Positions 1,854-21,351 of a stretch of DNA of 64,000 bases are shown here, one piece after another. How positions within the stretch are numbered: position 1 is the stretch's first letter; each line of letters opens with the position of its first letter. Position numbers and translations under genes: made by a program. Under the pieces are notes generated by a model. It was not told the origin of the DNA, did not search any database, and worked only from the letters and a program-made list of their open reading frames with translations. The DNA is from Nonlabens xiamenensis (GTDB lineage Bacteria > Bacteroidota > Bacteroidia > Flavobacteriales > Flavobacteriaceae): positions 124,001-188,000 of the forward strand of contig NZ_RMVE01000003.1 in the NCBI RefSeq assembly GCF_003865345.1. Direction: 5' to 3'.

Positions 1854-1972
1854 AATAAAAACAATTGCTAACACGTTGTATAAACAATAGCGTAGGCTTT
1901 CCGAAAAGCGGTAACTATAAATCCACTACTGCTCATACACAAAACCATTAACATTCATTTAGAGTAAATAAA

Positions 1973-3609: not shown

Positions 3610-3755
3610 CAATTTATAACCGCAACTACGGCGGATTAGATAACATCTTATTCCACTCTGAAATGCTAAAGTCTGTGCCTTACCGAAAATAAATCTCTAT
3701 TAACCTGTGAATGATGGGTATTGATAACGGCTAGCATTCACTTAAAAAAAACAAT

Positions 3756-4800: not shown

Positions 4801-5394
4801 ATGAAGAAAAAGACCATATCATATTTACTTATAATATTTATTGTAATCAGCTGTGGCGATAGTAAAACAGACAATGATAAAGAGCAGGCGTTAACTTCTT
4901 ATGAGATCGACAAGAATCAGGAAGATTCTACTTTAGAGGTTGCCGATCATGATTCTATTTACAGAAATTCAGAGGCCGATTTTCAATCACATGTCAATAG
5001 CAAAGTGAATATAGATAGCTTAATTACAAAATATCCTCCCAATCAGTATAGTGAACTGAGAAGTCATATGGAGTGGCTTGTTGAGGAATGGAAAAATGTG
5101 CCAAATCCTATGACTGCAAGGTATGAAGGAAATGACTTTGGAGATTATCATCATGTCTATTTCAAAGCTTCGAATGGAATAAACTATGATTTTGGACAAG
5201 CAAATAATAATTATGGACAATTTGAACTACATGAACTTTCTGGACATTTTATTGACAATCCAGCCTTTTTAGAACAAGAGTTTAAAGTGTTTTGGGATTG
5301 GAAATTGTCTAAGTTTTTATGTTGTGAAGGCGAGTATGGAGAGGCCGAAGCATATTTACCCACCATAACAAATCTAGAATTAATTAAAAAATAA
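4801..5394 (+). CDS. Hypothetical lipoprotein
   Basis: This is a 197-residue protein. The N-terminus MKKKTISYLLIIFIVISCGD is a clear lipoprotein signal with the acylated Cys at residue 18. A low-complexity acidic linker (about residues 20-65) precedes a compact domain of about 120 residues, with EWLVEEWKNVPNPMTARYEG and VYFKASNGINYDFGQ. I do not recognise the domain. The protein should sit on a membrane surface, with the linker acting as a tether. Confidence 0.75.
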   Translation: MKKKTISYLLIIFIVISCGDSKTDNDKEQALTSYEIDKNQEDSTLEVADHDSIYRNSEADFQSHVNSKVNIDSLITKYPPNQYSELRSHMEWLVEEWKNVPNPMTARYEGNDFGDYHHVYFKASNGINYDFGQANNNYGQFELHELSGHFIDNPAFLEQEFKVFWDWKLSKFLCCEGEYGEAEAYLPTITNLELIKK

Positions 5395-5416
5395 ATCCAA
5401 TTGATAGGTGGTTTAT

Positions 5417-5543
5417 CAGAACTGTTACCATCCATTACACTATTGACAATACAATACCCAAGGCTTTACTTTACCAGATGATAAGCTTGAAAGATCTGAG
5501 TAAGCCTATTCCCTATTCCATTGTTAACCAAATCGGCTCTTGA
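5417..5543 (+). repeat. Repeat R1, copy 1
   Basis: The last 67 nt (5477-5543) match 7682-7748 at 64 of 67 positions by eye, starting GATGATAAGCTTGAAAGATC and ending ATCGGCTCTTGA. The left 60 nt are more diverged but share ACCATCCAT and a common order. Both copies follow a gene end on the same strand by about 20 nt or less. The function is unknown. Confidence 0.8.
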
Positions 5544-5664
5544 GCGGATGATGTATAGAAAAACAGTTCCAGCGTCATTTGTGAATCCAGCAGCGAATAA
5601 GACAAGCCGATACACCCAAATCAACTTTAGTACAGTATAAAACTCCAGTTTTCAAACAGCTGCA

Positions 5665-5900
5665 GTATTCTATACTCCTGCGAAGATGTCTCAGCACTGA
5701 AAAGGCCGTCCTGAATTTCGTCGTGGAGGTGACTGATGATAACATGGGATATATTTCACTGCATGAGTTGGCTGTTGCCAAAAGGATGCGATTCTCTAGA
5801 TCGCAGTAACAGCAGTTTAGAAAATTAGGATAAGGCACTGGGCTAAAATTGTAGCTTCAACATTTTGGGCGTATTTTCCATGCAACGAAATCATAAACCA
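5665..5900 (+). repeat. Repeat R2, copy 2
   Basis: This is similar to 2810-3010 (copy 1). Shared words include ACTCCTGCGAAGAT, a GCGATT..AGATCG block, a run around TTTAGAAAAT, and TTGTAGCTTCAA. A weaker third trace (about 7920-7975) matches the CACT.AAAAAG..TTCCTGAAT part. By eye, conservation is about 70 percent over the right half. I infer that these are remains of one duplicated sequence. Confidence 0.55.
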
Positions 5901-5917
5901 AACTATCAGCATTTATT

Positions 5918-6766
5918 ATGACAAAAAACATCGCAATTTTATTAATGCTTGTTCTTTCATTCAGTTATTGTCATTCTCAAATTCCTATTGAAAAATTTCG
6001 AGCAGAAATAGAGCGTTTAGACACGGAAAAGCAAATAACCCAATATTGGAATAATCTATATAAAATTGACCAAGAAATATTAGTGAACACGACTGATTTA
6101 AAAGTAACCGATAGTATTTCTATTTCGAATATGATAAAGACCGCTTTAATTTACGAAATTCACGGAACTAAAGGTTATAACTCAAATGGATATAGCGGAT
6201 TTGTGCCAATTCTTAATCTTTCTCATAATCGAATTGGTAAAAGCCAAATAGCATATTGGCCAATTATTGAAAAATGCAAAGAAATAGGTGGAGCTATCGA
6301 AAGCTTCGGTGGAAAATATCCTGCATATCAACTTGAAAGTGTAGCTCTTACTTTTTACAATTACTCACTATTCAATCAAGAGGACAAATATTCAGCTCTC
6401 ATTAGTAAATTAAGTAAAATTGAAACTGGAAATATTGTTGACGAACTTCTAAAATCGTTCGAGGAACAAAATGAATTACGAAAATTTAGTGAAGTTGAAA
6501 TCCTTAATAGTTGGTATAGACAATCATTTAATGACCGAACGGACAAAGGGGAATTTTCCATTGTAAGGATGTCAGATGATAATTTATATTTAAAAAAATA
6601 CAATAGAATTCAAAAGCTCGAATTAATTAAAACAGATGCCAAGTCAAAAATTTACCGAATAGAAGACGAACCTTTTGGTTGGAATTACCTTTATGGAAAT
6701 GATGGGAGTTTAACTTTAATAGATGACAAGGAAAACGTATTAATTAATTATACACTCGCTAAATAA
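5918..6766 (+). CDS. Secreted hypothetical protein
   Basis: This is a 282-residue protein with a signal peptide (MTKNIAILLMLVLSFSYCHSQ) and likely cleavage after HSQ. The Cys at residue 18 is not in a lipobox. The mature N-terminal part is helical (KFRAEIERLDTEKQITQYWNNLYKID) and the C-terminal part is beta-rich (KLELIKTDAKSKIYRIEDEPFGWN). No family is recognised. The gene is flanked by repeat-bearing spacers and is not part of an operon. Confidence 0.7.
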   Translation: MTKNIAILLMLVLSFSYCHSQIPIEKFRAEIERLDTEKQITQYWNNLYKIDQEILVNTTDLKVTDSISISNMIKTALIYEIHGTKGYNSNGYSGFVPILNLSHNRIGKSQIAYWPIIEKCKEIGGAIESFGGKYPAYQLESVALTFYNYSLFNQEDKYSALISKLSKIETGNIVDELLKSFEEQNELRKFSEVEILNSWYRQSFNDRTDKGEFSIVRMSDDNLYLKKYNRIQKLELIKTDAKSKIYRIEDEPFGWNYLYGNDGSLTLIDDKENVLINYTLAK

Positions 6767-6888
6767 CAAATGCGGTCTGATTAAATAAAAAGTAGGATAT
6801 TGCAATTAAATAAAATACGTTCCGGCGGACCATAATTCGGTTTCAAAATCCCTCACTTGCCATAGCCATGGACGTCGTGCTTCATTAG

Positions 6889-7608
6889 ATGAATGAAATA
6901 ATTCAAAATAATATCAAATTTTCTGATTTGGCTTATGATGTCAAGTTGAGAATTGATTTTCTCGAACAAGTTACAGAAAGTGATTTAGATGCCATCGATT
7001 CAGAATTAAGTACTGGACTTATGAAATTGGGCATAGGATTTGACTCTGCTCACGGTATTAATTTTATTTCAGCAGCTCTTCTCGATTTTGGAGAATCTCC
7101 AAAATTTAGCGATTTAAGGAAGTGTGTCAATGAAGTTTTAACCACTTACGAATCAATAATTAAACAGATTACCTTTAACAAATCAGAATTTACTCAGGCG
7201 AGCTTTGACTTTATAACAGAGAAGAAAATTGAGTTTGAGAAGATATTGAAGGAAACCAAATCAGTTTTTTCTAAAGTAGATTTTAAGCCCATAAGCTCCT
7301 CTCCTGATAGTCCTGAATACAGACATTTCTCCGGCTCAGATACAGAAGAGACGATAACACTGTTCATTTCAGAAATCAACTATGACCAAAAAGATTGGGT
7401 TAGATTCTCTGTTGGCTGCAAAAGGCTCAATGAAAATGAAATTGCCGCCCTATTGGGTCAAATAAATCAAATTCACCCAAACGCTGTGCAAATCAAATGG
7501 AACGGGTTGGAATATAATTATGAGATTGAAAAGTGGGAGCTGCCCAAACATTATAAATTATTTGAATTAATAAAAAACGAAAGCACTACAAAGCCAAAAC
7601 TGAATTGA
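6889..7608 (+). CDS. Hypothetical cytoplasmic protein
   Basis: This is a 239-residue soluble protein without a signal peptide. Residues 1-130 look helical (FLEQVTESDLDAIDSELS). The C-terminal 100 residues are mixed and hydrophilic, ending with a charged tail. I do not recognise the family. The spacer upstream (6767-6888) has words related to other spacers of this accessory region (AACAAATGCGG, CCGGCGGACC), and the spacer downstream begins with repeat R1. Confidence 0.65.
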   Translation: MNEIIQNNIKFSDLAYDVKLRIDFLEQVTESDLDAIDSELSTGLMKLGIGFDSAHGINFISAALLDFGESPKFSDLRKCVNEVLTTYESIIKQITFNKSEFTQASFDFITEKKIEFEKILKETKSVFSKVDFKPISSSPDSPEYRHFSGSDTEETITLFISEINYDQKDWVRFSVGCKRLNENEIAALLGQINQIHPNAVQIKWNGLEYNYEIEKWELPKHYKLFELIKNESTTKPKLN

Positions 7609-8136
7609 AACGCAGTTCAGCCAAACCGTCACCATCCATAACGCTATTATTAAAAAAATTACCCAGAGCTTTTCTTATGCCGATGATAAGCTTGAAAGAT
7701 CTGAGTAAGCCTCTTTCCTATTTCATTGTTAACCAAATCGGCTCTTGAATTAATAAGAAAAAACTAAAACAATTACGGCGCCAACTTCAAATGACCAATT
7801 CATACACGGAAATGGTCGATCGGAGTTAGTCAATAACTTCCTGATAGCACAACGGATCTCTAATTCAACACCATTGCGGTATCTCAAGTTGATTGCAAAT
7901 TCGTCCGCTCTTGTGAAAAGCAAGTAGCACTCAAAAAGACTTCCTGAATAGTATAGCAGACGTTACAGATTGAGACAATTGCGATCATTCATGACGACGA
8001 AATTTTGTGGTTAAAATTTCTATCTTTCAGCAATCGCTTGATAGTTGGTGAAAATCTTTTGCAAGTTTTCTCTGCGAAGATATTATAACCAGAGGCGTTG
8101 GTAGCAATAATTATAACCTTGATCTAACTTTAAAAA
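7609..8136 (+). other. Spacer with repeat R1 copy 2 and decayed sequence
   Basis: There is no intact gene in 528 nt. R1 copy 2 occupies 7621-7748. From about 7905 to 7975 a stretch reads, in one frame, ASSTQKDFLNSIADVTD followed by a stop. This parallels STEKAVLNFVVEVTDD of the R2 copy at 5665-5900, so it is probably a third, more decayed R2 remnant. The word TCTGCGAAGATATTATAACC occurs near 8070. Confidence 0.45.
7621..7748 (+). repeat. Repeat R1, copy 2
   Basis: This is the partner of 5417-5543. The right 67 nt differ at only three positions, while the left 60 nt are more diverged (they share ACCATCCATAACG against ACCATCCATTACA). It starts shortly after the stop codon of the preceding gene, as copy 1 does. 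Confidence 0.8.
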
Positions 8137-8892
8137 ATGAAATTATCTACTCTTTTATTAGTCTTTTTATGTATTGGAAGTATTTCTAATTCATTTTCAC
8201 AATCCTCACTTTTTAGTTATGAAAAGTATATTAGTGCCAGTGGTGATACATTAAATTATAGACAACTTGTATCTGATTATGATCCGAAAACCAAATATCC
8301 CCTGGTCATCTTTTTGCACGGTGCAGGGGAACGCGGCAATGACAACGAAGCTCAATTAAAATGGGGAGTTTTAAATTTCGCTTCAAGCGAAAATATGAAA
8401 ATGCACCCTTCCATTATTATCGCACCTCAATGCCCTAAGAATATGGTTTGGGCCAGCTTTTCTGAGGATAACGTGTCTCTTCAACCTTCACCAACAAGGC
8501 CGATGAAACTTGTAATGGAACTGATTAACGAAGCTATTGCAAAATTACCTGTTGATACTGATCGCATTTACATAACAGGACTCTCAATGGGAGGTTTTGG
8601 GACTTATGATGCCATAACACGGCATCCAGAACTATTTGCTGCAGCAGTACCTGTTTGCGGAGGAGGTGATGTTACAAAGGCACCATCGATTGCACATATT
8701 CCTATCTGGATTTTTCACGGAGCACAAGATGCGACCGTAAATCCCGTTCTGTCGCAAAATATGGTTGAAGCTTTAACTAAAGAAGGAGCTCATCCAGGAT
8801 ACACACAATACCCTACAACTGGACATTTTTCTTGGATAGCTGCTTACAGCGATAACATGATGATGGATTGGTTATACAGCCAACGGAAGTAA
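8137..8892 (+). CDS. Secreted alpha/beta hydrolase (esterase/peptidase-like)
   Basis: This is a 251-residue protein with a signal peptide ending SNSFSQ. It has a complete alpha/beta-hydrolase core. LVIFLHGAGERGND forms the oxyanion region (about residue 57), GLSMGGFG carries the nucleophile Ser (about residue 150), GAQDATV carries the acid Asp (about 198), and TTGHFSW carries the base His (about 228). It is closest to the secreted phospholipase/carboxylesterase and feruloyl-esterase-like group common in Bacteroidota. The natural substrate is unknown, perhaps ester-linked polysaccharide substituents. The stop overlaps a truncated CPBP frame. Confidence 0.88.
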   Translation: MKLSTLLLVFLCIGSISNSFSQSSLFSYEKYISASGDTLNYRQLVSDYDPKTKYPLVIFLHGAGERGNDNEAQLKWGVLNFASSENMKMHPSIIIAPQCPKNMVWASFSEDNVSLQPSPTRPMKLVMELINEAIAKLPVDTDRIYITGLSMGGFGTYDAITRHPELFAAAVPVCGGGDVTKAPSIAHIPIWIFHGAQDATVNPVLSQNMVEALTKEGAHPGYTQYPTTGHFSWIAAYSDNMMMDWLYSQRK

Positions 8893-9341
8893 TTTTTGAT
8901 CCATATCATCATTCTAAAAAAGCGCAGCCATCAAAGTACCCTGTAAACAGCCTTATCAGGGCATTTAAACGTGCCATTGCTATTTTAATTATCCTGATAA
9001 TCATGTGGGTCTTCGCTGCATTTGGAGAGGAGTTTTTATTTAGGGGATTCTCCTTGAAAGGATTGGCGAACTTATTCGGAAGCTCTAATAAAGCTTGGTT
9101 GTTAGCAGCGCTAATTTCCTCTGTGTATTTTGGGGTTTCGCATTCTTATCAAGGATTGGTGGGAGTCATCTCTGTACTTCTATGGTCATTTTTAATATCT
9201 CTGATATTCTGTAAAAACAAGAAAAATTTACTTTTATTGGTCCTCATTCATGGATTTAGTGATACCATTGGTCTCAGTTTAATTTATTTCAATAAAGATC
9301 ATCTTATTTCTGAATGGATAATACAAATGCTTTTAACGTAA
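8868..9341 (+). pseudogene. 5'-truncated CPBP (CAAX-type) membrane metalloprotease
   Basis: The frame holds the catalytic half of a CPBP intramembrane protease. FAAFGEEFLFRGF is the EExxxR motif, and later segments FGVSHSYQG and LIHGFSDTIG carry the conserved His residues. Members normally have several transmembrane helices before the EExxxR helix; here only one precedes it. The frame has no ATG at its beginning (TTG 8868 lies inside the hydrolase gene), and the first in-frame ATG (9003) is inside the catalytic helix. I infer that the 5' part was lost when this fragment was joined to the hydrolase end. A read-through or coupled product is possible but unlikely to be active. Confidence 0.7.
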
Positions 9342-9812
9342 ATTAAAACTGTAGCGACCAATGACCTAAGCTAAAATGCAAGTCATTTCATATTTTTTTC
9401 TTGTATAGTTTTAACATTAAGACAGTCCCGAATTTGCTAGGACGAAAGCTTGTTTTATCATTTCATTGCAGACGGCGATCAACGCTATTTTTACTTTTCC
9501 CTTTGGCCAAAAGTCAATCATACAAAGCCTTGTATTGTATGAAAAACAGGGAAGTCTTCAACACAACGAATTATTTGCACTTATTCCTGACAAACCTTCG
9601 AAAATGGCAGATGTTTGAATAGAAGATAGAATTATAGCGTACTTCAAGAAAGAGAAAATGATGGATCTGGCTAACAAATAAACAAAGTAGTGCCGATAGA
9701 GCCAAATGATGATCAATGGGAACCAAGACAATTGAAACCAATAAAAATCTGTATACCAATGATACATCATATTCATATCTTTATACTATCAACCAAACAA
9801 CATGGGTAGAGG
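9342..9812 (+). other. Spacer with decayed coding remnants
   Basis: There is no intact gene in 471 nt. It contains the frameshifted remnant at 9441-9618. Further right, around 9690-9770, another short open stretch reads PIEPNDDQWEPRQLKPIKIC, which may belong to the same dead gene. No promoter or terminator was seen. Confidence 0.4.
9441..9618 (+). pseudogene. Frameshifted remnant of an unknown gene
   Basis: From 9441 the frame reads DESLFYHFIADGDQRYFYFS and on to TKPCIV, then TGA at 9540-9542. A shift by one base at about 9538 opens YEKQGSLQHNELFALIPDKP and ends at TGA 9616-9618. Both halves have natural protein composition, so one inserted or deleted base is the simplest explanation. The family is not recognised and no start codon is visible. 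Confidence 0.45.
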
Positions 9813-10088
9813 ATGAATTTTAAGAGTTTAAACAAGAAGAAAATCTGGGAAAACTACTGTTCAAAGCATGCTGATTTTATTTCAGAATTGAATGTTAACG
9901 AATGGGTTTTTCATACAGAAAATAATTTCCGCGAATTTGCGACTTATGGATTTATAAGTAGTACTAAAGACACTACCTTTTCTTTTCAAAATTTAAATAG
10001 TCAGCAGTACGAAAAACTATTTGATTTCATCAACAATTACTTTGATATGGACATGCTGTATTTTACGCATTTCAATGACAATATTTGA
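9813..10088 (+). CDS. Small hypothetical protein
   Basis: This 91-residue protein starts MNFKSLNKKKIWENYCSKHADFI and is rich in Phe, Asn and Tyr, without a signal peptide or membrane helix. It could be an intact small protein or the N-terminal part of a longer gene whose 3' end is lost. No family is recognised. It lies between a decayed region and a PH-domain membrane protein. Confidence 0.5.
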   Translation: MNFKSLNKKKIWENYCSKHADFISELNVNEWVFHTENNFREFATYGFISSTKDTTFSFQNLNSQQYEKLFDFINNYFDMDMLYFTHFNDNI

Positions 10089-10274
10089 TAACAAAATCAA
10101 TTGGGTGATTTAATTCTACAATCCTTAAAATGACCATTGCTGGTAACGAACTTACCTCCTATTCCATTTCTCAATTCCCTGCCTTTTTTTATTTTTATAG
10201 GACTATCAGCTAAACACTTAAATAGCCGTCCGCAAAAAAACCTAAGCTTAAATAAATTTAAGGAGACCAAAAAA

Positions 10275-10706
10275 ATGAAATTTAACAGTAGAAAAGACAT
10301 ATTATTTAGTACAATTATTTTTGGAATGAACGCCTTTCTGATAGGTGTTACTATACTCGGAATACTTTACGGTGAATTGGGGGGAAATAATTACTGGATC
10401 TTAATACTCCTGTTAGCAGTTATAGGATTTCTGTTTTGGATATATTTTGGAACGAACTATGAATTGAACAAAAACAATGGACTGATCTACAGAAGTGGCC
10501 CCTTTCATGGAACAATAAGTATTGACCGAATAACTGAAATTGTAAAGGGAAAAACACTCTGGGTAGGATTTAGACCAGCGACTGCTAGAAAAGGCCTGAT
10601 TGTGAAGTATGATAAATTCGATGAGATTTATATCAGTCCCAAAACAAATGATTCTTTTATTAGAAAAATATTAGAACTGAACGGAGAGATAAAGATTTCG
10701 GAATGA
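10275..10706 (+). CDS. Membrane-anchored bacterial PH-domain protein
   Basis: This is a 143-residue protein. I chose ATG 10275 because it follows a purine-rich AAGGAGA at 10260-10266 and starts directly before two transmembrane helices (about residues 9-30 and 37-55). Upstream extension to 10137 would add an unlikely hydrophobic leader. The cytoplasmic domain (LIYRSGPFHGTISIDRITEIV, then GLIVKYDKFDEIYISPK) fits the short bacterial PH-like family bPH_6 / DUF1200. The role of this family is unknown; some PH-like domains bind lipids or peptides. Confidence 0.78.
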   Translation: MKFNSRKDILFSTIIFGMNAFLIGVTILGILYGELGGNNYWILILLLAVIGFLFWIYFGTNYELNKNNGLIYRSGPFHGTISIDRITEIVKGKTLWVGFRPATARKGLIVKYDKFDEIYISPKTNDSFIRKILELNGEIKISE

Positions 10707-11335
10707 AACTCTGAACTCTAAAATACAACTGACGTAAATACAAAAACTACCTCTATTATGATTCTGTATACTGTCCTTGTTCAATATTTAGTAGCTTTCT
10801 CAATCTCGTTTTACAGCACGCAAGCTTTAACCTTGTAAATACTGCAATTGGCGGCTCAAGAATAAATTACACAATGATGGGTTTGTTTATCTGTGTAGTA
10901 ATTCTTGAAGTCCATGGAAATTGTCAAGCAGAGATCTGCCTATTTGGTGTTCTCAAATGACTAGACTTCGTAAAGCCTTCAGAGAGTAAAGCCTTAAAGA
11001 ATATCATTCAGATATAAGATTAAGAGGAACCAACCTAGCTTAAATACATTGAACTACCCTCCCACTCAACCAATAATTGGTCATTAAAATCTAAAGAGCC
11101 GGTCATTTTAGTAATAAACATCATATTTTTAATGCGCGTTACAGCAAATAATAAGTGGAATTTGTACGCATTAAATAGGAATACAGAACGTCATTATCTT
11201 GAAACGATTTTTGAATAAGCATTATATATATGCTTAAATACCCAATGACTTGAGATAAAGTTGGAGATTTCTTGGCATGATTTGGACGAAAAACATAATT
11301 AAGGTACATATTGTTGGGTCAGATTCCGAAAACAT
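10707..11335 (+). other. Long spacer upstream of the four-gene operon
   Basis: These 629 nt hold no recognised gene. A short open frame at about 10758 (MILYTVLVQYLVAFSIS..., 26 residues) looks accidental. The promoter of the operon must lie here. A weak candidate is TTG at 11282-11284 followed 24 nt later by TATTGTTG at 11309-11316, one mismatch from TAnnTTTG and with a spacing longer than usual. No repeat copy or integration site was found. Confidence 0.4.
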
Positions 11336-13165
11336 ATGAATAGAATGAAAAGCACCAAACAAAGATGGTTAAGAGATTTTATACGATTTCTTCCACTTAA
11401 AAGTCAATTTGTCCTTTCTGGAAACACCAAAGATCTTCAACTCCTTCTTAATGAGTCAGATAGTTTTGGGTGGCATACCTTGGAAGAAGTAATTGACGCA
11501 GAATTGAAGAATTACGGTTATCGACATGTTGTTTACTATAATCCTTTACAGGGTTTTAGCGTTCCTTTTTATCAGGGTACGCCCGAAGAAAAGGAAGAGC
11601 TTTACAAGCGGTTGGGCATCCCTTTAACGAAAGAAACGGTCTATAATAATCTGCCTAATTTTGATAAAGTTCTTAAAAATATTGTGGAATGTCGGGACTT
11701 TCCTGTTGCACTGGTCATTGACTTTGCTTCTCAATTTTTGATGAATCCAGAAAGCCTATTGAAGGTGGAACACGATACTTTTGGTCAGGCCCATGTATTA
11801 TCACAAAAAACAACCACCCAACCCTTTGGCTCTCCAAGTAAAGCCTTTTACAACACGGTTATATGGGTAGTGGATAAGGAAGGTGACCTACCAGACTGGA
11901 TGATCATCAACAACCCCAAGATCAGGCATATTCCTATTGGAAGACCTGATCATTATTCCAGAAGGAGATTGGTTACTCCCATGATCCATGGAATGCTCAA
12001 CGATCAGGATAAGACAACACAAGTGATACAGGATTTTGTAGACGAAACAGAAGGTTTATTACTACTGGATTTAGTGGCCATCTTAGAATTGGCGCGATCT
12101 GAATCTATACCCATCGTAGATATCGCAGATGCCGTAAGACGATATAAACTTGGAGTAACTGAAGACCCTTGGATGAACATCGATCGTTTGAAAATTGAGC
12201 ATGCGGAAGAATTTATCAAATCCAGGGTCAAAGGTCAGGATCATTCTATCCAGCATTTGATTGATATTGTAAAACGTGCCATAACTGGTGTGGGCTCTTC
12301 CAAGCGCAACAACCGTCCAAGAGGAGTCGTGTTCTTGGCAGGCCCGACAGGAGTTGGAAAGACCGAACTTGCCAAAACAGTAACTAGTTTGCTGTTTGGT
12401 GACGAAAGCTCCTATATCCGATTTGACATGTCAGAATTCAGTGCTGAACATGCATCACAACGCTTGATCGGTGCACCACCAGGCTACGTGGGTTATGACG
12501 TGGGTGGAGAATTGACCAACGCTGTTCGAGAGAAACCGTTTAGCGTCGTGTTGTTTGATGAAATTGAAAAGGCACATCCTCGCATTTTGGATAAATTTCT
12601 GCAAATTTTAGATGATGGTGTACTCACTAGTGGACGCGGAGACAAAGTCTATTTTTCTGAAACCCTGATCGTGTTTACTTCTAACCTGGGAATCTATAAA
12701 GAGACCTTGACTGGAGAACGTGTTCCTAATGTCAACTACAATGATACATTTGATGTAGTGGAAGCAAAAGTGAAGGAAGAAATTGATCGCTATTTTAAAT
12801 TTGACTTGAATCGACCAGAGTTACTGAACCGTATTGGAGAAAACGTCATTGTATTCGACTACATAAGAAAAGACGTGGGAGAACTCATATTTGATATGAT
12901 GATTGACGATCACATCAGGGCCATAGAAGAACAATTAGAAATTAGGTTGAAGCTGGATTCAAACGTCAGGAATCAGCTAAAGGAATTGGCCGTAGCTGAT
13001 TTGTCCAATGGTGGACGTGGTGTTAGAAATATGATTGAATATCATTTTATCACGCCGATTTCAAGAGCATTATTCTCGTTGAATCCTTCCAAGGGAGAGG
13101 TAGTAAACGCTACTGAAGTTTTTAACAAAAACAGATCTACCCATATCAAATTGCAAAGAAGCTAG
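11336..13165 (+). CDS. ClpB-like AAA+ ATPase with a degenerate N-terminal ATPase-like domain
   Basis: This 609-residue protein is the first gene of the operon. Residues about 310-600 are a full class-II Clp module: Walker A GPTGVGKT (336-343), pore loop GAPPGYVGYDVGG, Walker B VVLFDEIEKAHP (D408, E409), sensor-1 FTSNLG, arginine finger LNRIGE and a sensor-2-type GGRGVRNMIE. Residues about 20-230 look like a decayed AAA core: a strand FVLSGNTKDL with no P-loop, LVIDFASQF instead of a Walker B acid pair, and VIWVVDKEGDLPDW where sensor 1 would be. There is no coiled-coil M-domain and no obvious ClpP-binding tripeptide. This suggests a remodelling motor rather than a protease partner. The radical-SAM gene begins 5 nt after its stop. 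Confidence 0.9.
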   Translation: MNRMKSTKQRWLRDFIRFLPLKSQFVLSGNTKDLQLLLNESDSFGWHTLEEVIDAELKNYGYRHVVYYNPLQGFSVPFYQGTPEEKEELYKRLGIPLTKETVYNNLPNFDKVLKNIVECRDFPVALVIDFASQFLMNPESLLKVEHDTFGQAHVLSQKTTTQPFGSPSKAFYNTVIWVVDKEGDLPDWMIINNPKIRHIPIGRPDHYSRRRLVTPMIHGMLNDQDKTTQVIQDFVDETEGLLLLDLVAILELARSESIPIVDIADAVRRYKLGVTEDPWMNIDRLKIEHAEEFIKSRVKGQDHSIQHLIDIVKRAITGVGSSKRNNRPRGVVFLAGPTGVGKTELAKTVTSLLFGDESSYIRFDMSEFSAEHASQRLIGAPPGYVGYDVGGELTNAVREKPFSVVLFDEIEKAHPRILDKFLQILDDGVLTSGRGDKVYFSETLIVFTSNLGIYKETLTGERVPNVNYNDTFDVVEAKVKEEIDRYFKFDLNRPELLNRIGENVIVFDYIRKDVGELIFDMMIDDHIRAIEEQLEIRLKLDSNVRNQLKELAVADLSNGGRGVRNMIEYHFITPISRALFSLNPSKGEVVNATEVFNKNRSTHIKLQRS

Positions 13166-13169
13166 CAAT

Positions 13170-13805
13170 ATGAAGATTGAAATATCACGACTGCACTTCC
13201 CGGTAACCACCCTGGGACCAGGAAAACGCATCGGCATCTGGTTTCAGGGATGTTCAATTCATTGTACCGGATGTATTTCGGTAGACACATGGCAATTTGG
13301 AATTAATTCTGTCTCGTTGGATGAAGTAAAACTATTATTGAGCGAATGGTTGCCCAAAAGTGATGGTATCACAATTACAGGAGGAGAACCTTTTGATCAG
13401 GAAGCCGCATTTTTTGAATTATTGGAATTTTTAAGACCCTATCAACAATCTGTTTTGGTATATAGCGGCTACTCATTTCAAGAGTTACAAAAGAAAGTAG
13501 AGATGGATAATGGATGGATAGATGTATTAATCTCAGAACCCTATGACCATACACAACCACAAACCAAAGCTTTAATGGGAAGTGACAACCAACAAATGCA
13601 CATGCTCACGCCTTTAGGTGAGATGGATTTTAATAGTTTTCAAAGTCATGGATTAGAAAAAAAATTAGATGTGCATTTTGAAGAAGACAGGGTTTGGATG
13701 ACAGGTATTCCTAGTAATGGGATGACTGAAATTGTCAAATCTGCTCAAGATGACCGTGTATTCTTAAGACACACTCAAGGTGCAATAAAAAAGAAGGAAT
13801 CATGA
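13170..13805 (+). CDS. Small radical-SAM / 4Fe-4S single-cluster protein, activase-like
   Basis: This is a 211-residue protein. GCSIHCTGC carries the canonical CxxxCxxC motif (C28, C32, C35) that binds the radical-SAM 4Fe-4S cluster. ITITGGEPF is the GGE motif that holds S-adenosylmethionine. Size and the first 80 residues match the anaerobic ribonucleotide reductase activase / pyruvate formate-lyase activase group (Fer4_12). No glycyl-radical enzyme lies nearby, so the target is unlikely to be one of those; an operon partner or a nucleic acid is more probable. The gene begins 4 nt after the AAA+ gene and its stop overlaps the next start as ATGA (13802-13805), implying translational coupling. 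Confidence 0.88.
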   Translation: MKIEISRLHFPVTTLGPGKRIGIWFQGCSIHCTGCISVDTWQFGINSVSLDEVKLLLSEWLPKSDGITITGGEPFDQEAAFFELLEFLRPYQQSVLVYSGYSFQELQKKVEMDNGWIDVLISEPYDHTQPQTKALMGSDNQQMHMLTPLGEMDFNSFQSHGLEKKLDVHFEEDRVWMTGIPSNGMTEIVKSAQDDRVFLRHTQGAIKKKES

Positions 13806-16800
13806 AATTTGTACGAGTATGTCCATCATGTGGAAGTCAACGTCCCGTCCACGAAATGTACTGTCAATCCCAAATGGAAGACCAAGCTTGTGGTTGGTTG
13901 CTCATGAATGTCAGACAAACGCCTGTTGGCGGAAACGTTGAGATAAATATTGAAAACCAAAGGGATCAGCGCTACTGTGAAAACGGTCACGAAGTTGGTT
14001 CGGATGATTTTATGTGCATGGAATGCGGCGCCGATATTAGAGACGGTTCGTCAGTTGAGGTCCAAGAAGTGATACCTCAAAAGATTGACACTTATACGGT
14101 TCTGGAGAATATTCAAAATTCTAATGCAACAAAAGAATGTTTTTTGGTCCAAAATGATCAGGAGCAAGTCTATTTTCTGACACTCTATCACAAGGATTTC
14201 GAACCTGATACAGCAATTTACCAGGTACTTCAAAAATCAGATACGGACCATGTGGCAGAATTGATTCACACCGGTCAGTGGGAAGATCGTTTTTATGAAG
14301 TCACCGAGCGCATCACAGGAGGATCAATTGCAGAATCAAACTACCTGGAGGAAGAAAGAATAGAGAAATTAGTCGATGAAATTGGAAGGGCTTTACGAGA
14401 TCTTTCTGAAGCTGGAATACGACATAGGGACTTGAGCCCAGATAACATATTAATTCGTGAAAAGGAAAGCTTCGATTTGGTCCTGATTGATTTTAGTTCG
14501 GCTCGATTGTCTGATTATGATCTGGATACTGATACGCCCTTAGAACTCACTCGGTATACAGCTCCAGAGGCGATTATCGGCGCGGTGAGTCCGTCTTCAG
14601 ATTGGTGGAGTTTGGGAATGATCGTTTTGGAGCAGGTGACCAAAGGAAGCTTTTTCCAAGATGTGAACAACAAAGCATTTATGATCCACTTGGTGACCAG
14701 AGGAGTACAATTGCCAACGGAGATCGACGAGCGATTTTTGCTTTTACTGCAGGGATTATTATGTAGAGATCCCTTGAAACGATGGAATTGGAATCAGGTC
14801 GAAAAATGGTTGAATAATGAACCCCTCGATCCACCTGACGAATTTAATTCTTCTGACCAACAGAAATATGGTAAATCCATCAAATTAGGTGATGAAATCC
14901 ATACCAACCCGAGCTTCTATGCTTTATCAGCGGCCGAAGAAACCCATTGGAAGGATGGCCTGGAAGCTTTTACATCAGGAAGCTTATCCAGTTGGTTGGA
15001 GGAAATCATCCCAGATGAAAAGCTCAAATCTAGGATAAGACATCTTAGAAATATGGAGGATGTTGACCTCGAGTGGCGGTTCTCATTGGCTTTAATGCTT
15101 TTAAATGAATCTCTCCCACTAACATGGCGAGGCCAAATTATCATACCCGCTTGGTTGTTGAGCAATACTGAAACAGCCACACAACTTATAGAGGGTAAGA
15201 TACCGGCCTATCTAGAAGAAATCGACCGTGAAAAATGGTTGGTCCATCTAAAATATAGAAAACAAAACATTACCAAAAAGGCAGCGAGTCTGGAAATCCA
15301 ACTCAATGCAAATAGATTCAAGCTCAACTCCCTGAGTACGTCACGGGTTCGATTGAATGCCGAAATAGAATTGTTGCGCCAACTCTATCCTGATGCCAAC
15401 AATATTAGTTTATCAGATTTGATGGCTGATCTCAGGCCTAGCGAAGAAGATTTAATTCTTATCCTCAGCGCCAAACGTAATCAGCTAATTTCTCTGGAGA
15501 AGTTGGTTAATGATACAGTTAATTTGGCAAGAAGAAATGATATAAATGTCAACCCCAATTTTTACAAGGAGTTTCTCATCAAATCCAGATTGAAAATTTA
15601 TGATCTACTTACTCGACATCTGGAAGGCTTTTCAAAAAGCCAAAACCATGCCTTGAATCGCTGGGCTGATCAATTCAGAATTGAAAAACGTTTGTCGCTC
15701 ATCCAGTCGGTTTTGTGCCTTTCACTACCTAAGGAAGAATGGATCACACCGCCCAAACACGAATACGCCACTAGACTTTTACGATTCTATGAGAAAAAAA
15801 TAGTTCATGCCTCTTCTCGTGGACCACTGGTAAGACTCATCCTTTCCACCAACTCTGCACGTTTAGATATTACTGAATTAGGAACCGCATTGAAACCAGC
15901 CGAGAAGTTCTTACAACCTATAATTTGTAGAACTTCTAAGACTGAAACCGTAGATCCTATAGCGTTTAGTGAGCATCCCCTATTAGAACGTCGTACAAGA
16001 AGAATGTTGCTGAAAGCGGCCAATTTTAAACGGGACACTGGATTAGATTCCTTGTATTTGGGATTTCCATTTTTAATAAGCCCAGGAAATTCAAATAAAC
16101 GCCCCAGGATACTACCTATTCTATTGTGGCCAGTCGATCTTGAATTGAAAAATCGCCGCCAACCAAGGTTGGACATTGGATTTGACAAATACAACAATGA
16201 GGTGCGCATCAACCCAGCCTTGTCCAGTGTTTTTGACGATGAATCATTGAATAGAATCAAAAAAATCTGTTCAGAGATTCTAGCCACACAAAGTTTGACC
16301 ATTCAAGAAATAATGGATGCCTTAGGGTCTTTTATCACACCTAAAAATACCAGCCTTACAAGCCATCCCACCGTCTCATATCAACTGAGTGAACCAGGCT
16401 TGGAGTTGTATTGTTCAGCAGTTTTTTTTAATGCCAATTTTACAGGGCAAGCCATTAGTGAGGATTTACGAAGACTACAAAGTTTGGCTCATTCTGACAC
16501 AGCAATGGAAGCCTTATTGAAGATCCGAGAGCCTGAAATCTCCACGTTTCAAGACAAAATAAAAGAAGTAGATCGGTACACCGTTGTGGCGGTCGATCCT
16601 TCCCAAGAAAAAGCCGTATTACAAAGTCGTTTAAATCCGGGTATTGTCATTGAAGGTCCCCCGGGAACAGGTAAAAGTCAGACGATTGTGAATATTATTG
16701 CCGATTGTATTGGTCGTCAGGAAAAAGTATTGGTGGTCTCACAAAAAAGAGCCGCAATTCAGGTGATCTTGAAACGTTTGGAAGCCACTGGATTGGATCA

Positions 16801-19800
16801 GCGCGCAATCGCTATCACGGATATCAATAAGGATCGGCAAACAACCATACAAAGTGTCCGTGAGCAGGTACCCGGATTTATGGAGAAAATCCAGTACCAA
16901 AATGTGCTCAGAGGGATAGATATTGAAAGAACAAGTCTTGCCAAACAGATCGACCGGATTGAATCAAGCTTAAATGTATTAGCTGAAGAAATTCATGTGG
17001 TGGATGACCTTTCAGGTAGCACTTACAGAAATATTCTTTCAGAATTGATAGGCCTACAAACTTTTGCCTATATCGATGTGCCCGAAGCTCGAAGGTTTCT
17101 TGAAGTTAAAGATATTGACGAACTCAATACACTCATCCAACAATCAAAAAGTTTAATTCAGCTTTGGTTACCATCGCATTACGAAACCAGTACTTTACAT
17201 AATCTCAAGCTTGCACAGATTGATCAATCCACTAAAGAAGCAATTGGCAATGATTTAAAACATTTCTTTGAAGCGGAAGAAAAACGCATCGACTGCCTTA
17301 AAAAAACCTCAAATGCATTTGACGGCACCCAAGCTCAATATTATGGTAGCTGGTTGGAAGAAAATGCCCGTCCAATTAAAAATACTTCAGAAAATGTCAT
17401 CATCAACGTGCAAAGCTGGTTTGACCTGTTGTACGACGATTACAATACATCTTCGATTGCCCAGGATATCTCTGAAAAGCTTGAGGCGATCTACCGCCGT
17501 GTTGGAGAATTGATCGCGGATTTTCAATTCGACTATTTTTCAGAAAGCTTACATACGATCGACGATAAAACTTTGCAAAAGTTAGCAAACAGCTGTGATT
17601 ATTGCTTGAGCACTTCCTTTTTGAAATACCTGAATCCTTTTGGTTTCCTTCATATGCTTCGTGTCAAAAGGTTCTTGCAGCCACTACAAATCAAAGCTAT
17701 ACCTGAAACTTTAAAAGAGTTTAAAATTGCTCTTGAACAAGAACGTTCATTTCGGAAATACAGGTTTCAGTTCTTTAGACAATTGGAAAGACTCAAAATA
17801 ACTAAAAAAGATATTAATGATCCTAAGTATTTACGCTTAAAAATAGGAAGCACTAATAGCGAATTGCAGGAAGCCATTCAAATGGTAAACCGCATCAAGG
17901 CATGTCCATTAAAAGATGAAGCCAAAAATCTGTTGAAGACAGGATCAATACTACAATATCAAGAGTTTGTTGCTAGGTTGCATGATGCGCATGATCGCTA
18001 CAAATCCAGGCTATTCTCTCAAGAAGTACTTCGACCCTTAACGAAATGGCTGCAGCCTAATGTCGCAGAGGACTTTTCTGAGAATATCAGAAGGAATGAA
18101 TCTGATGTTGATATCTTAGAACAAATGCTTCATGATATGGAGCATTACATCCAATTTCAAACCTTCAGAATGCGTCTGGGAACACAAGGTGAATACGATT
18201 CACTTTTAAGATTTTTCAGTCACCTCAGAAAGTACGAGCATAAAATAAATGAATTCCCTTCACAAGAATGGAGTAGCCTTATCCAAAATACCATCCGCAG
18301 AGAAGGGTTGCTAGGATGGAAACACCGCATAGAGCAAGCCTCGCCTACCTTATTAATGAGCGAGCAGGAGATACAACTGAACGTGGAAACATTGGAGGAT
18401 CTGCTGGAAAAAATCCGCACCTTGAACCGACGTTTTCTAGACCGGAGTATAGAAGTGGATAAGTTGGGATCACAAACCGAATGGAATCGCATTACTCGAC
18501 TACGTGGAAAGAATTATAAAAAACTACGGGAATTTATAAGCCTAGGAATTGATATAGGATTGATTGACATGCGTCCTGTCTGGTTAATGAGCCCAGAAGT
18601 TGTGTCACAAGCTATTCCATTGCAGTCAGGACTTTTTGATGTGGTTATCTTTGATGAAGCCTCACAAATGCTCATCGATCATTCCATCCCTGCCCTGTAC
18701 CGCGCTAAACGAGTGATAGTAAGTGGGGATGAAAAACAAATGCCTCCGACAGGATTTTTCTCTCAAAAAATGGATGATGAAAATGAGGAAACCCAGGAAT
18801 TGCGTTTAAGTGAGGATCATTCTGAAGAGGAGCTCGCAAATTACCAAGACGCCTGGAATCGTCGAGAGGTTAAGGATTGTCCTGATCTACTCAGCCTGGC
18901 AAAATCGACATTACCTGTTACAACGCTTGAAATTCATTATCGTTCTCAATTTCAATCCCTCATTAAATTCTCTAACCATGCCTTTTATGGAGGAAAATTG
19001 CATGTACCCGCCTATCACCCTAAGCAGGAGATCATTAACAAAAAACCATTGGAAGTTTTACGAATCGATGGTGTCTATGATGAGCAAACCAATGAAAAGG
19101 AAGCGGATGCCTTGATCAACTATATCGCTCAACACTGGCAGCAACCGGAGTCAGAACGATTCAGCGCTGGAATCGTTACTTTCAACAAAAAGCAGGCAGA
19201 ACTTATTGAGGATAAAATTCACGAACGCGAAATGCAAGATGAGGCCTTTAGATCTGTTTTGAATCAGGAAAGAAATAGGCAGCAGGAAGGTGAAGACATG
19301 GGATTCTTTGTTAAAAATGTCGAAAATGTTCAGGGGGATGAACGTGATATGATATTGTTCAGTACAACTTTTGGCCTCAATCAACACGGCGTCTTTCGAA
19401 GGAATTTTGGGGCCTTGGGTCACCGTGGAGGTGAACGACGTTTAAATGTCGCTATTACACGAGCACGTTTCAAAGTAGTGATTGCTACGTCTATGCCGAT
19501 CAAAGATATATCAGATATTTTATCTACTGGTCGACCACCATCCAAACCCAGGGATTTCATTCAGGCCTATTTAAATTATTCAGAAATTCATTCTAATGGG
19601 CAAGTGGATGTGGCCACAGCCACAGTGTCAAAACTATCTGCACAAAACTCTACTACAGATGCGCTGTCAAAAAATGATGGATTTAAAAATACCGTAAAAT
19701 TCTATATTGAAAGTCTAGGTTACCAGGTGGTAGAGAACAATGATTACAACGTATTTTATTTAGATTTGGCCATTGAAAAGAACGGAAGATTTGTTTTGGG

Positions 19801-19993
19801 TATCGAGTGCGATACACCGAGAAATATGTTATTGAAAGCTGCGAGATATCGCGAAATATGGCGTATCCAGGTCCTAAAAAAGACTATTCCACTGATCCAT
19901 AGGACCACCTCCTATCGCTGGTTGAAAGAGCCCGAAAAGGAACAAAACCGATTGAAAGAAGCTATAGAACTTGCCTTAATGAACAACCCATGA
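13802..19993 (+). CDS. Giant zinc ribbon / degenerate kinase / DUF4011-like / SF1 helicase / nuclease fusion
   Basis: This 2063-residue protein has these parts in order. Two zinc ribbons (C7, C10, C21, C30; then C59, C72, C75). A protein-kinase-like domain at about 95-345 with HRDLSPDN (208-215), DFS (230-232), APE (254-256) and DWWSLG. A helical linker. A DUF4011-like segment at about 715-765 (HPLLERRTRRMLL, LYLGFPFLI). An SF1 DNA2/NAM7-type helicase with GPPGTGKS (952-959), FDEAS (D1618) and GDEKQMPP, plus C-terminal motifs ETHYRS-like EIHYRSQF and NVAITRAR. A C-terminal nuclease of the MTES_1575/Vsr type at about 1960-2045 (D1988, E2002, D2004 in LGIECD). Known relatives with DUF4011, helicase and nuclease occur in phage-defence loci; a nucleic-acid-degrading role here is inferred. 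Confidence 0.88.
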   Translation: MKFVRVCPSCGSQRPVHEMYCQSQMEDQACGWLLMNVRQTPVGGNVEINIENQRDQRYCENGHEVGSDDFMCMECGADIRDGSSVEVQEVIPQKIDTYTVLENIQNSNATKECFLVQNDQEQVYFLTLYHKDFEPDTAIYQVLQKSDTDHVAELIHTGQWEDRFYEVTERITGGSIAESNYLEEERIEKLVDEIGRALRDLSEAGIRHRDLSPDNILIREKESFDLVLIDFSSARLSDYDLDTDTPLELTRYTAPEAIIGAVSPSSDWWSLGMIVLEQVTKGSFFQDVNNKAFMIHLVTRGVQLPTEIDERFLLLLQGLLCRDPLKRWNWNQVEKWLNNEPLDPPDEFNSSDQQKYGKSIKLGDEIHTNPSFYALSAAEETHWKDGLEAFTSGSLSSWLEEIIPDEKLKSRIRHLRNMEDVDLEWRFSLALMLLNESLPLTWRGQIIIPAWLLSNTETATQLIEGKIPAYLEEIDREKWLVHLKYRKQNITKKAASLEIQLNANRFKLNSLSTSRVRLNAEIELLRQLYPDANNISLSDLMADLRPSEEDLILILSAKRNQLISLEKLVNDTVNLARRNDINVNPNFYKEFLIKSRLKIYDLLTRHLEGFSKSQNHALNRWADQFRIEKRLSLIQSVLCLSLPKEEWITPPKHEYATRLLRFYEKKIVHASSRGPLVRLILSTNSARLDITELGTALKPAEKFLQPIICRTSKTETVDPIAFSEHPLLERRTRRMLLKAANFKRDTGLDSLYLGFPFLISPGNSNKRPRILPILLWPVDLELKNRRQPRLDIGFDKYNNEVRINPALSSVFDDESLNRIKKICSEILATQSLTIQEIMDALGSFITPKNTSLTSHPTVSYQLSEPGLELYCSAVFFNANFTGQAISEDLRRLQSLAHSDTAMEALLKIREPEISTFQDKIKEVDRYTVVAVDPSQEKAVLQSRLNPGIVIEGPPGTGKSQTIVNIIADCIGRQEKVLVVSQKRAAIQVILKRLEATGLDQRAIAITDINKDRQTTIQSVREQVPGFMEKIQYQNVLRGIDIERTSLAKQIDRIESSLNVLAEEIHVVDDLSGSTYRNILSELIGLQTFAYIDVPEARRFLEVKDIDELNTLIQQSKSLIQLWLPSHYETSTLHNLKLAQIDQSTKEAIGNDLKHFFEAEEKRIDCLKKTSNAFDGTQAQYYGSWLEENARPIKNTSENVIINVQSWFDLLYDDYNTSSIAQDISEKLEAIYRRVGELIADFQFDYFSESLHTIDDKTLQKLANSCDYCLSTSFLKYLNPFGFLHMLRVKRFLQPLQIKAIPETLKEFKIALEQERSFRKYRFQFFRQLERLKITKKDINDPKYLRLKIGSTNSELQEAIQMVNRIKACPLKDEAKNLLKTGSILQYQEFVARLHDAHDRYKSRLFSQEVLRPLTKWLQPNVAEDFSENIRRNESDVDILEQMLHDMEHYIQFQTFRMRLGTQGEYDSLLRFFSHLRKYEHKINEFPSQEWSSLIQNTIRREGLLGWKHRIEQASPTLLMSEQEIQLNVETLEDLLEKIRTLNRRFLDRSIEVDKLGSQTEWNRITRLRGKNYKKLREFISLGIDIGLIDMRPVWLMSPEVVSQAIPLQSGLFDVVIFDEASQMLIDHSIPALYRAKRVIVSGDEKQMPPTGFFSQKMDDENEETQELRLSEDHSEEELANYQDAWNRREVKDCPDLLSLAKSTLPVTTLEIHYRSQFQSLIKFSNHAFYGGKLHVPAYHPKQEIINKKPLEVLRIDGVYDEQTNEKEADALINYIAQHWQQPESERFSAGIVTFNKKQAELIEDKIHEREMQDEAFRSVLNQERNRQQEGEDMGFFVKNVENVQGDERDMILFSTTFGLNQHGVFRRNFGALGHRGGERRLNVAITRARFKVVIATSMPIKDISDILSTGRPPSKPRDFIQAYLNYSEIHSNGQVDVATATVSKLSAQNSTTDALSKNDGFKNTVKFYIESLGYQVVENNDYNVFYLDLAIEKNGRFVLGIECDTPRNMLLKAARYREIWRIQVLKKTIPLIHRTTSYRWLKEPEKEQNRLKEAIELALMNNP

Positions 19994-21330
19994 GCGGACC
20001 TAAAGTAGTACGTGTAGTCACCCCAAAAGAACGGGAAATAATCAAAAATAGATGGCTGACACAGTTGGGTCGGACCATCCAACAATTCAAAAGTTATGCC
20101 CAAAAAAATGGGGTGCTGGATCAAGAACTTAGCCAGGGACTGGAAGAAACTTTAGCACATTATCAGGCAATTCCCGCAGAGGACTACCAGAGAATCGAGC
20201 GCGAGGTCCCAAATCAAATTAATTTTTTAAAAGCAGAGAAAGCCAAGTTGGTCAAAAAGGTAAATAAAGAAAAGACCAATATATGGAATGAATACCGCCA
20301 ACTCAAAAGCACTGAGGTAGAACTAAAGAAAATGTTGTTGGAAAGAAATATTTCTTTTGAATCTATTGACCAACCCAGCGTGATTACCAAGAAAAATCTG
20401 GCCCAATATAGCAGACAGATTGACGCGATGTACGATAAACTGAAGGAAGCTTTGAACCACAAAAGCAGCTTAACCGCTGAGCAGCAGGAAATTCAAAAGA
20501 GACTGTCGGCAGGAGATAGCTTGTTGTCCGTAAAAGAATGGCCTAAAGAATTGCCAATGGCTTCCAGCCGCGAGCAGAAGTTAGAGCAAACATTACGGGA
20601 ATTGTTCCTTGAAGATATTGCCCAAGATAAAATTCAAGAATTTATTGATCGGGTGGAACAACTGCACCAAAATGACCAAGGCTACGATTTGCAATTAGAT
20701 TCCATCATCTTGGAGGCAGCGACTTTCCAAAAGGAACAAGTGGAACTGAGAATCGCCGAACAAGCATTGTCTGAAGCCTTAGACCAATTAAAACAAATAA
20801 ACGAGAAACTGACCATCATCTCTAAATGGGAGTCTTTACTCCAACAGGAAGACATCAAACAAATTAAAAATGCTACGACAAAGGCCAATCAACTTTATAA
20901 AAATACGACGGAGTTAATCATCGTAGAGGCACGTCGGACAGCGATTAAAATGGCGTTGACCAAAGCTGGTTATGAAGTCAATGACAGTATGGAAACTGCC
21001 TGGGTAGAAAACGGAAGGTTGGTCGTAAAAAAAGCCACCAACTCACTGTATGGAATAGAATTTATGAACCCAAAAAACTTATCCAAAATTCAAGCTCGTG
21101 TCGTGGCAGATGAAGACCGGACGCAAGAAAGAAGCCAGAGCCAAGACTTGCACCAAGAAGAAATCTGGTGTGATGAGTTTTCTGAAATCAAAGAGATCCT
21201 GGAAAGGGAAAACCTGTCCATTCACATCGAAAAAGCCATGGCAGTAGGCGCTATTCCCATTAAAGAAGTAAAGCTGGAAGGTAGTTTTAAGAAGAGTAGC
21301 TCAACGGTTAAGAAAAAGAAAACGCTGTAA
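19990..21330 (+). CDS. Coiled-coil protein with conserved MSGPKVV N-terminus
   Basis: This 446-residue protein is the last gene of the operon. It starts in an ATGA overlap with the helicase gene. The first 12 residues (MSGPKVVRVVTP) match a conserved start I recall from uncharacterised coiled-coil proteins. About residues 60-180 and 235-320 are long amphipathic helices rich in Glu, Lys, Gln and Leu (for example KAEKAKLVKKVNKEKTNIW). The C-terminal 100 residues contain a compact segment (AWVENGRLVVKKATNSLYGIEF) and a basic tail ending KKKKTL. No enzyme motif is visible. Coupled translation suggests a structural or adaptor subunit for the helicase-nuclease. A hairpin terminator follows at once. 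Confidence 0.82.
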   Translation: MSGPKVVRVVTPKEREIIKNRWLTQLGRTIQQFKSYAQKNGVLDQELSQGLEETLAHYQAIPAEDYQRIEREVPNQINFLKAEKAKLVKKVNKEKTNIWNEYRQLKSTEVELKKMLLERNISFESIDQPSVITKKNLAQYSRQIDAMYDKLKEALNHKSSLTAEQQEIQKRLSAGDSLLSVKEWPKELPMASSREQKLEQTLRELFLEDIAQDKIQEFIDRVEQLHQNDQGYDLQLDSIILEAATFQKEQVELRIAEQALSEALDQLKQINEKLTIISKWESLLQQEDIKQIKNATTKANQLYKNTTELIIVEARRTAIKMALTKAGYEVNDSMETAWVENGRLVVKKATNSLYGIEFMNPKNLSKIQARVVADEDRTQERSQSQDLHQEEIWCDEFSEIKEILERENLSIHIEKAMAVGAIPIKEVKLEGSFKKSSSTVKKKKTL

Positions 21331-21351
21331 AAGAATACATTGTGTTCTTTT
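21329..21351 (+). terminator. Terminator of the four-gene operon
   Basis: An AT-rich hairpin, AAAAGAATACA paired with TGTGTTCTTTT, starts inside the stop codon and is followed by CTTTTATT. It has about ten pairs (one G-T) and a very short loop. Its position directly at the gene end supports termination. Confidence 0.65.

Follow-up and report, generated by a model that had tools for sequence, protein, structure and literature searches.

What do an HSP100-type motor, a radical S-adenosylmethionine (SAM) protein, a giant helicase-nuclease and a coiled-coil protein do together when their genes lie side by side? We address this question for positions 11,336 to 21,330 of a 64,000-nucleotide stretch of Nonlabens xiamenensis DNA (contig NZ_RMVE01000003.1, forward-strand positions 124,001 to 188,000), referred to below as the window. 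The locus consists of four adjacent open reading frames (ORFs) on the + strand, here called g1 to g4, and the ORF coordinates confirm the junctions of +4, -4 and -4 nucleotides given in the original prediction for this DNA, which had taken the four for a single defence machine. We find that the four genes form one conserved unit, a conclusion of which we are nearly certain. A role of the operon in defence seems to us moderately probable, and the system would most likely be a licensed helicase-nuclease acting against phages or plasmids.

Conservation and spread of the four genes

Conservation is gauged here by a profile scan of genome_contigs with a five-sequence g3 alignment, which returns 426 relatives, the best 80 of them (in 79 loci) being kept. 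Among these 79 best g3 loci, g1 and g2 are found in 77, g4 in 78 and all four genes in 76, and every one of the 76 complete loci has the same gene order on the same strand. The loci L050, L101 and L081 lack some of the genes because the contig ends there; among incomplete copies, g4 is split into two ORFs in L062, and contig ends truncate g4 in L069 and L074 and g1 in L041. The hosts span three phyla (Flavobacteriaceae, alpha-, beta- and gammaproteobacteria, and one chlamydial metagenome-assembled genome, or MAG), and over 72 rows the correlations between the pairwise distances of g1 to g4 lie at r 0.90-0.96, so the four are inherited as one unit. Kept order, correlated distances and the reach across three phyla thus uphold the earlier claim of a single machine built from these four families; the nearness to defence genes that was expected along with it is seen only in part. 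A fifth conserved gene does not emerge from the flanks of the 79 loci, where no family occurs in more than 13 and the recurrent ones look antisense or generic by eye. No description of the four-gene set was found in the literature covered, which is open-access, with subscription papers mostly missing and bioRxiv outside it.

The unit is widespread in phyla and patchy within them. In a sample of 398 Pseudomonadota, a profile of the g1 N-terminus matches nine genomes, four of them strongly (>350 bits, with the centre genome G450 included), and g3 sequence lies beside g1 in all four strong cases, some genes not being recovered as ORFs in L149 and L150. Among 395 Bacteroidota, a strong g1 match (432 bits) occurs solely in the window genome, with 102 others at or below 70 bits, and a single-sequence search places g4 in one genome, again the window's own. 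The weak first-domain matches in the 102 Bacteroidota are mostly AAA-size open frames of ~570-790 amino acids (for example L154-L158). Plasmids carry the unit as well: at least 80% of g3 is covered in eight records. Six of these, from Rhizobium and Caballeronia, were examined and show matches to all four genes, two of them with g3 in two ORFs. Plasmids of Microvirga and Roseomonas hold operon remnants, that of Microvirga beside an ISKra4 transposase. In E. coli, 2 of 5426 genomes match, in a single 176-base piece, and the one inspected has a 912-amino-acid Clp ATPase gene and lacks the operon. When a tree is built from the C-terminal 560 residues of g3, the Bacteroidota rows stand together and the chlamydial MAG groups with a Legionellaceae MAG, which suggests transfer, although a binning fault could explain it. 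Within the genus, a DUF4011 helicase-nuclease (L003-L011) is present in 9 of 22 genomes and forms a single frame of 1811-1844 amino acids in eight of them; these proteins are of another type, with 33-36% identity over the helicase-nuclease part.

One relative places the operon at a position of known interest. In Pseudomonas otitidis, pheT, ihfA and tRNA-Pro lie within ~8 kb of g4 (pheT and ihfA were read by eye from sequence starts) and the genes run in the order g4, g3, g2, g1; across the P. otitidis group, g4 is found in 1 of 18 genomes searched, P. otitidis itself. PMC10250203 places the P. aeruginosa core defence hotspot cDHS1 at pheT-ihfA-tRNA-Pro and describes, on its right flank, a small hypothetical gene, a large DUF4011 gene and a radical-SAM gene, an arrangement that the P. 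otitidis genes fit. From this synteny and that description, the P. aeruginosa genes flanking cDHS1 appear to be the same operon, and PA2725-PA2728 are presumably these genes.

The four proteins

The largest protein, g3 (13,802 to 19,993, + strand, 2063 amino acids), reads as a zinc ribbon-pseudokinase-DUF4011-superfamily 1 (SF1) helicase-nuclease fusion, with matches to Pkinase, DUF4011, AAA_11/AAA_12 and MTES_1575. Its N-terminal zinc ribbons (13,802 to 14,029) contain cysteines 7, 10, 21, 59, 72 and 75, retained in all 79 rows that have a residue at these positions. A domain scan places DUF4011 at 15,980 to 16,225. The helicase is divided into a motif I region (16,553 to 17,056) with an intact Walker A and a motif II-VI region (18,557 to 19,501) with an intact DEAS box, both invariant or nearly so over 80 g3 rows, and the MTES_1575/Vsr-like nuclease (19,682 to 19,966) keeps D1988 and E2002 in 80 of 80. 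Between ribbons and DUF4011 lies a kinase-like domain, with approximate limits of 14,069 to 14,836 from the Pkinase match and residue alignment, which had earlier been called a kinase. The Pkinase fold does match, but most catalytic residues are gone: at the position aligned with the catalytic beta3 lysine 72 rows have threonine and none has lysine, and the DFG aspartate is kept in 14 of 79 rows, the catalytic-loop asparagine in 23 of 79 and the HRD aspartate in 74 of 79. Because the beta3 lysine is absent and most catalytic residues are lost, we reject an active sensing kinase; judged by its residues, the domain is a degenerate pseudokinase. Some doubt persists for one clade, the window and the related flavobacteria, whose 12 rows retain HRD, the asparagine and the DFG aspartate with the beta3 lysine lost.

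How close is g3 to proteins of known systems? Like the DUF4011 antiphage proteins, it has DUF4011, SF1 helicase and restriction-endonuclease-fold domains with intact catalytic residues. Models of ProA (NF058533), Hhe (NF042953) and PDC-S37 match the DUF4011-helicase-nuclease part at E values of 1e-148, 3e-84 and 7e-141, yet g3 scores far below the NCBIfam cut-offs (497 of 1500 for ProA, 283 of 2000 for Hhe), and the stretch best matched by ProA and PDC-S37 begins at residue 728, with the zinc-ribbon/pseudokinase head outside it. PADLOC, which had been proposed as a check and was used at model level only, does supply models that match g3 (PDC-S37, Hhe, MkoA), but the matches are partial and no system is named. 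The SF1 helicase MkoA of Mokosh resembles g3 (PDLC03920, E 1.5e-52, partial and in three stretches), and an MkoA model matches the kinase-like part of g3 too; Mokosh has an active Ser/Thr kinase, whereas the g3 domain is degenerate, and Mokosh is not known to have an AAA+ unfoldase, radical-SAM protein or g4.

The motor protein g1 (11,336 to 13,165, + strand, 609 amino acids) is recognised through an AAA_2/ClpB-like domain match and a structure model. Its first AAA+-like domain (11,336 to 12,175, ~residues 1-280) is degenerate, with a Walker A pattern in 0 of 72 rows, and its second (12,203 to 13,162) has the Walker A GPTGVGKTE, the Walker B FDEIEK and the pore loop GYVGY, of which the first two and the G, Y, G and Y of the third are invariant in 39 rows. 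The model has two AAA+ domains (mean predicted local distance difference test score, pLDDT, of 76, predicted template modelling score of 0.47, and low values in parts of the second domain) and aligns with ClpC/ClpA/ClpB chains over ~640 columns (best 8xon_O, E 2e-25, template modelling score ~0.4). Unlike those HSP100 proteins, g1 has no Walker A in its first ring and no ClpP loop, the docking pattern [LIVM]G[FLY] being found in 0 of 72 rows when sought between sensor 1 and the next helix. As modelled, g1 forms a double ring of the ClpC/ClpB kind, in which the first ring is dead and the second is catalytic and has an aromatic pore loop. The AAA+ unfoldase of the original prediction survives as an HSP100-type double ring with a live second domain, with the amendment that the first is degenerate. 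We reject ClpP-dependent proteolysis because the dock is missing, and g1 would therefore remodel rather than degrade. PADLOC matches of g1 are to AAA-domain models and partial.

The second protein, g2 (13,170 to 13,805, + strand, 211 amino acids), is a radical-SAM protein with a Fer4_12 match that resembles NrdG and the pyruvate formate-lyase (PFL) activase. With these enzymes it shares the CX3CX2C iron-sulphur motif (13,251 to 13,274, invariant in 78 of 78 rows), GGEP (also kept in 78 of 78) and an activase-like sequence; it differs in having a conserved GSDNQ (all rows except one) and a C-terminal extension, and in scoring below the NCBIfam cut-offs (74.6 against 126.1 for NrdG). NrdG and the PFL-activating enzyme are nevertheless its best matches, the latter being its nearest relative in the PDB, and QueE is a secondary one (PDB 2e-5; PHROG 5e-6).

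The last protein, g4 (19,990 to 21,330, + strand, 446 amino acids), is a coiled-coil protein and putative adaptor. Its start could be scored in 71 loci, and in 56 of these its gene overlaps the end of g3 by 4 nucleotides. The structure model (pLDDT 85) consists largely of helices, with a strand at the N-terminus and an alpha/beta domain at the C-terminus. No known family covers it: Pfam and NCBIfam give nothing above a curated cut-off (one Pfam match falls below, at E 0.078), PHROGs give no match at 0.001 and PADLOC one weak match at 0.0024; a fold search of the PDB with the model returns nothing at E 0.001 or better, and a profile search of PDB sequences has a best E of 0.34. In the C-terminal domain (20,932 to 21,270), all 72 rows share G327, Y328 and C394. 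The conserved N-terminus MSGPKVVRVVT (19,990 to 20,022) begins [MVL]SGPK in 71 of 77 scored homologues; six enterobacterial proteins (L100, L104, L105, L107, L108 and L109) start MSSS. We considered MSGPK as a modification tag and dropped the idea, because residues 2-10 are modelled as a beta strand and because of the six MSSS starts, which make a structural role equally likely.

A proposed licensed helicase-nuclease and its alternatives

Combining these features, we arrive at a four-protein machine in which a licensed helicase-nuclease attacks foreign nucleic acid, an explanation that we regard as about an even bet. The effector would be g3, in which a UPF1-like helicase and a Vsr-like nuclease are fused and whose zinc-ribbon and pseudokinase head would bind and regulate instead of phosphorylating; g4, translated with g3, would serve as its adaptor; the live second ring of g1 would pull on or remodel the g3-g4 complex; and g2 would, like an activase, abstract hydrogen from a protein of this complex, with Cys394 or Gly327-Tyr328 of g4 as candidate sites. 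In this way g1 and g2 would mature or license the helicase-nuclease, and the attack on foreign nucleic acid would follow. Licensing of the effector by the radical-SAM protein and the motor is, taken by itself, somewhat doubtful; who modifies whom, the signal, the adaptor role of g4 and the role in defence are all things that we infer. If the explanation is correct, a radical-SAM enzyme and an unfoldase switch on a machine that destroys nucleic acid, radical chemistry is tied to bacterial immunity through a protein target and not a small molecule, and the genes apparently flanking cDHS1, now used as boundary markers, acquire a testable function.

What could g2 act on? The classical targets of activases were sought in 24 host genomes with Gly_radical (PF01228) and NRDD (PF13597): the window's own genome, which is 100% complete, and 23 reached through the loci, whose completeness is unstated. 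Gly_radical is found in one of these hosts and NRDD in five, that host included, and neither is matched in the other 19, among them the window genome; in 14 control genomes Gly_radical is found in three and NRDD in six, with E. coli positive for both. Since an intact activase-type g2 is present in hosts with neither family, it probably acts elsewhere, and the operon partners are the simplest candidates; its target may thus be one of them rather than a classical glycyl-radical enzyme. A glycyl-radical motif in the operon proteins was rejected: R[VIL][ASCT]G[YFWH] occurs 20 times over 72 rows and four proteins (g1 1, g2 0, g3 19, g4 0), too rarely for an invariant site.

A motor with this distinctive first domain and a radical-SAM gene are also found together beside other outputs. 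On an Aristaeella (Clostridia) plasmid (L027, 5668-19144) they accompany a separate DUF4011 helicase-nuclease, a kinase that looks intact by eye, a coiled-coil protein starting MSGPK, a zinc-ribbon FHA protein and a PP2C-type phosphatase. Plasmids of Acinetobacter, Photobacterium and Polaromonas (L115, 4743-14462; L116, 4716-14423; L117, 5867-15778) have five genes, for a large 'AAA domain' protein, a PIN protein, a coiled-coil protein, the motor and the radical-SAM protein; the large protein of Polaromonas, the one scanned, is an SF1, MkoA-like helicase (type B) that the MkoA model matches at 7.6e-102. On a Geminocystis (cyanobacterial) plasmid (L114, 2634-13998) the radical-SAM and motor genes stand with that of a coiled-coil protein starting MSGSPK and with those of several further proteins, one of which matches DO-GTPase2 below the cut-off. 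Window-type and plasmid-type motors align by hhalign at E 6e-98 over both domains, and at the profile level their homology is beyond doubt. We put forward tentatively that these loci represent a new class of immune system, with a constant motor/radical-enzyme core, usually joined by a coiled-coil protein, in which the radical enzyme would act on an operon partner and so license varied outputs (a helicase-nuclease giant, a helicase and PIN protein, a kinase/FHA/phosphatase relay, or GTPase-like proteins) by a radical- or thiyl-type licence. Passages of PMC7159879 describe conflict systems centred on AAA+ proteins or GTPases, with a constant NTPase core, swapped effectors and, in one FtsH-type subset, a radical-SAM protein. 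The motor/radical-SAM pair shares this theme of a constant core with exchangeable effectors, but the cores described there are MoxR-vWA, FtsH or GTPase; ClpN repeats are mentioned, ClpB appears only in a reference and DUF4011 nowhere in the main text.

Is the unit directed against invaders at all? That the nearest models are antiphage, that the spread is patchy and plasmid-borne, that broken copies occur and that the P. otitidis copy sits at a hotspot position all argue for defence. The same machine could instead be a resident DNA-damage or stress system that processes damaged or stalled host DNA and has no special role against invaders, a reading that we consider unlikely. SF1 helicase-nucleases also act in repair, and the operon resembles the rest of the window in its content of guanine plus cytosine (GC); the DUF4011 and radical-SAM genes flanking cDHS1, moreover, are reported in every P. 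aeruginosa isolate (PMC10250203). Such a system is hard to square with g4 in 1 of 395 Bacteroidota and, among the 18 members searched of the P. otitidis group, in P. otitidis alone, with a strong g1 in 4 of 398 Pseudomonadota, with plasmid carriage and copies truncated or cut by insertion sequences, or with antiphage proteins as the nearest models of g3.

Two further alternatives change the chemistry or the victim. If g2 belonged to a small-molecule pathway (for example one making a viperin-like nucleotide analogue) or modified RNA, with its product used by the helicase-nuclease or another factor, the lack of a match to either glycyl-radical family tested in 19 of 24 hosts would be accounted for, as would the QueE among its secondary matches and the weak match of the type B radical-SAM protein of L117 to PADLOC viperin (E 7e-6). 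We judge this improbable, for the best matches of g2, NrdG and the PFL-activating enzyme, have proteins as their known substrates, and it is strictly paired with a motor of the kind that threads proteins, which speaks for a protein substrate. An abortive self-killing or interbacterial device, with g1 removing an inhibitor and g3 cutting host nucleic acid, would be mainly a sub-case of defence. It draws on the unfused clostridial variant with its intact-looking kinase, FHA protein and PP2C phosphatase and on the variant that pairs the motor with a PIN protein, parts that are frequent in conflict systems; no fifth conserved flank gene was recognised as a possible immunity gene, and we think such a device very improbable.

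Several observations weigh against the licensed defence nuclease itself. Presence of the cDHS1 flank genes in every P. aeruginosa isolate, as reported in PMC10250203, is unusual for accessory defence, and a flank survey without a control, with figures from the first 25 of 157 families listed, is weakly defence-rich, with GajA models in 3 of 103 ORFs and phage integrase in 3 of 103. NrdD is carried by five of the 24 hosts, one of which also has Gly_radical; an action of g2 on g4 or g3 is conjectural, and the conservation of Cys394 may have other causes, such as fold or metal. When profiles are compared, g4 shows no significant similarity to the coiled-coil proteins of variants B (the five-gene plasmid type), C and D. 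BLAST without composition correction gives 5e-5 (L115) and 0.008 (L116) for the window g4 against B and 0.045 against C, with 5e-14 for B against D and 2e-8 for C against D, values that coiled coils can inflate. A proteobacterial locus (L151, 3488-12199) has the motor, the radical-SAM gene, an 879-amino-acid kinase and a 422-amino-acid protein, with no giant helicase among its ORFs. Three loci come from IMG/VR, none with g1 or g2; a viral-collection contig (L110, 9956-15141) holds the C-terminal part of g3 with g4 and neither g1 nor g2, and is probably a broken copy.

Surroundings of the operon

The long upstream spacer noted in the original prediction is there, with 629 nucleotides (10,707 to 11,335) between the nearest called ORF and g1; we presume it to be the promoter region, and promoter scans of it stay at chance level, with no convincing promoter. 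At the other end, an A/U-rich hairpin overlaps the g4 stop and is followed by a U-rich tract (21,329 to 21,351, + strand). With -7.3 kcal/mol, a z of -2.76 and 3 of 200 shuffles equally good, it is likely the terminator that had been proposed, although the list from a generic terminator scan does not contain it. A clean empty site beside thrA was sought in three relatives of the genus and none was found: only thrA (with thrB in one) matched, ORFs antisense to thrA also being among the matches. GC is 33-34% upstream of the operon, 38-41% over g1 to g4 and 39.7% over the whole window. A Pfam scan of ten window neighbours of the operon recognises no defence gene; in the AT-rich positions 1 to 11,335, five of the eight ORFs scanned match Pfam, as DUF4262, an FMN reductase, a hydrolase, an Rce1-like protein and a bacterial PH domain.

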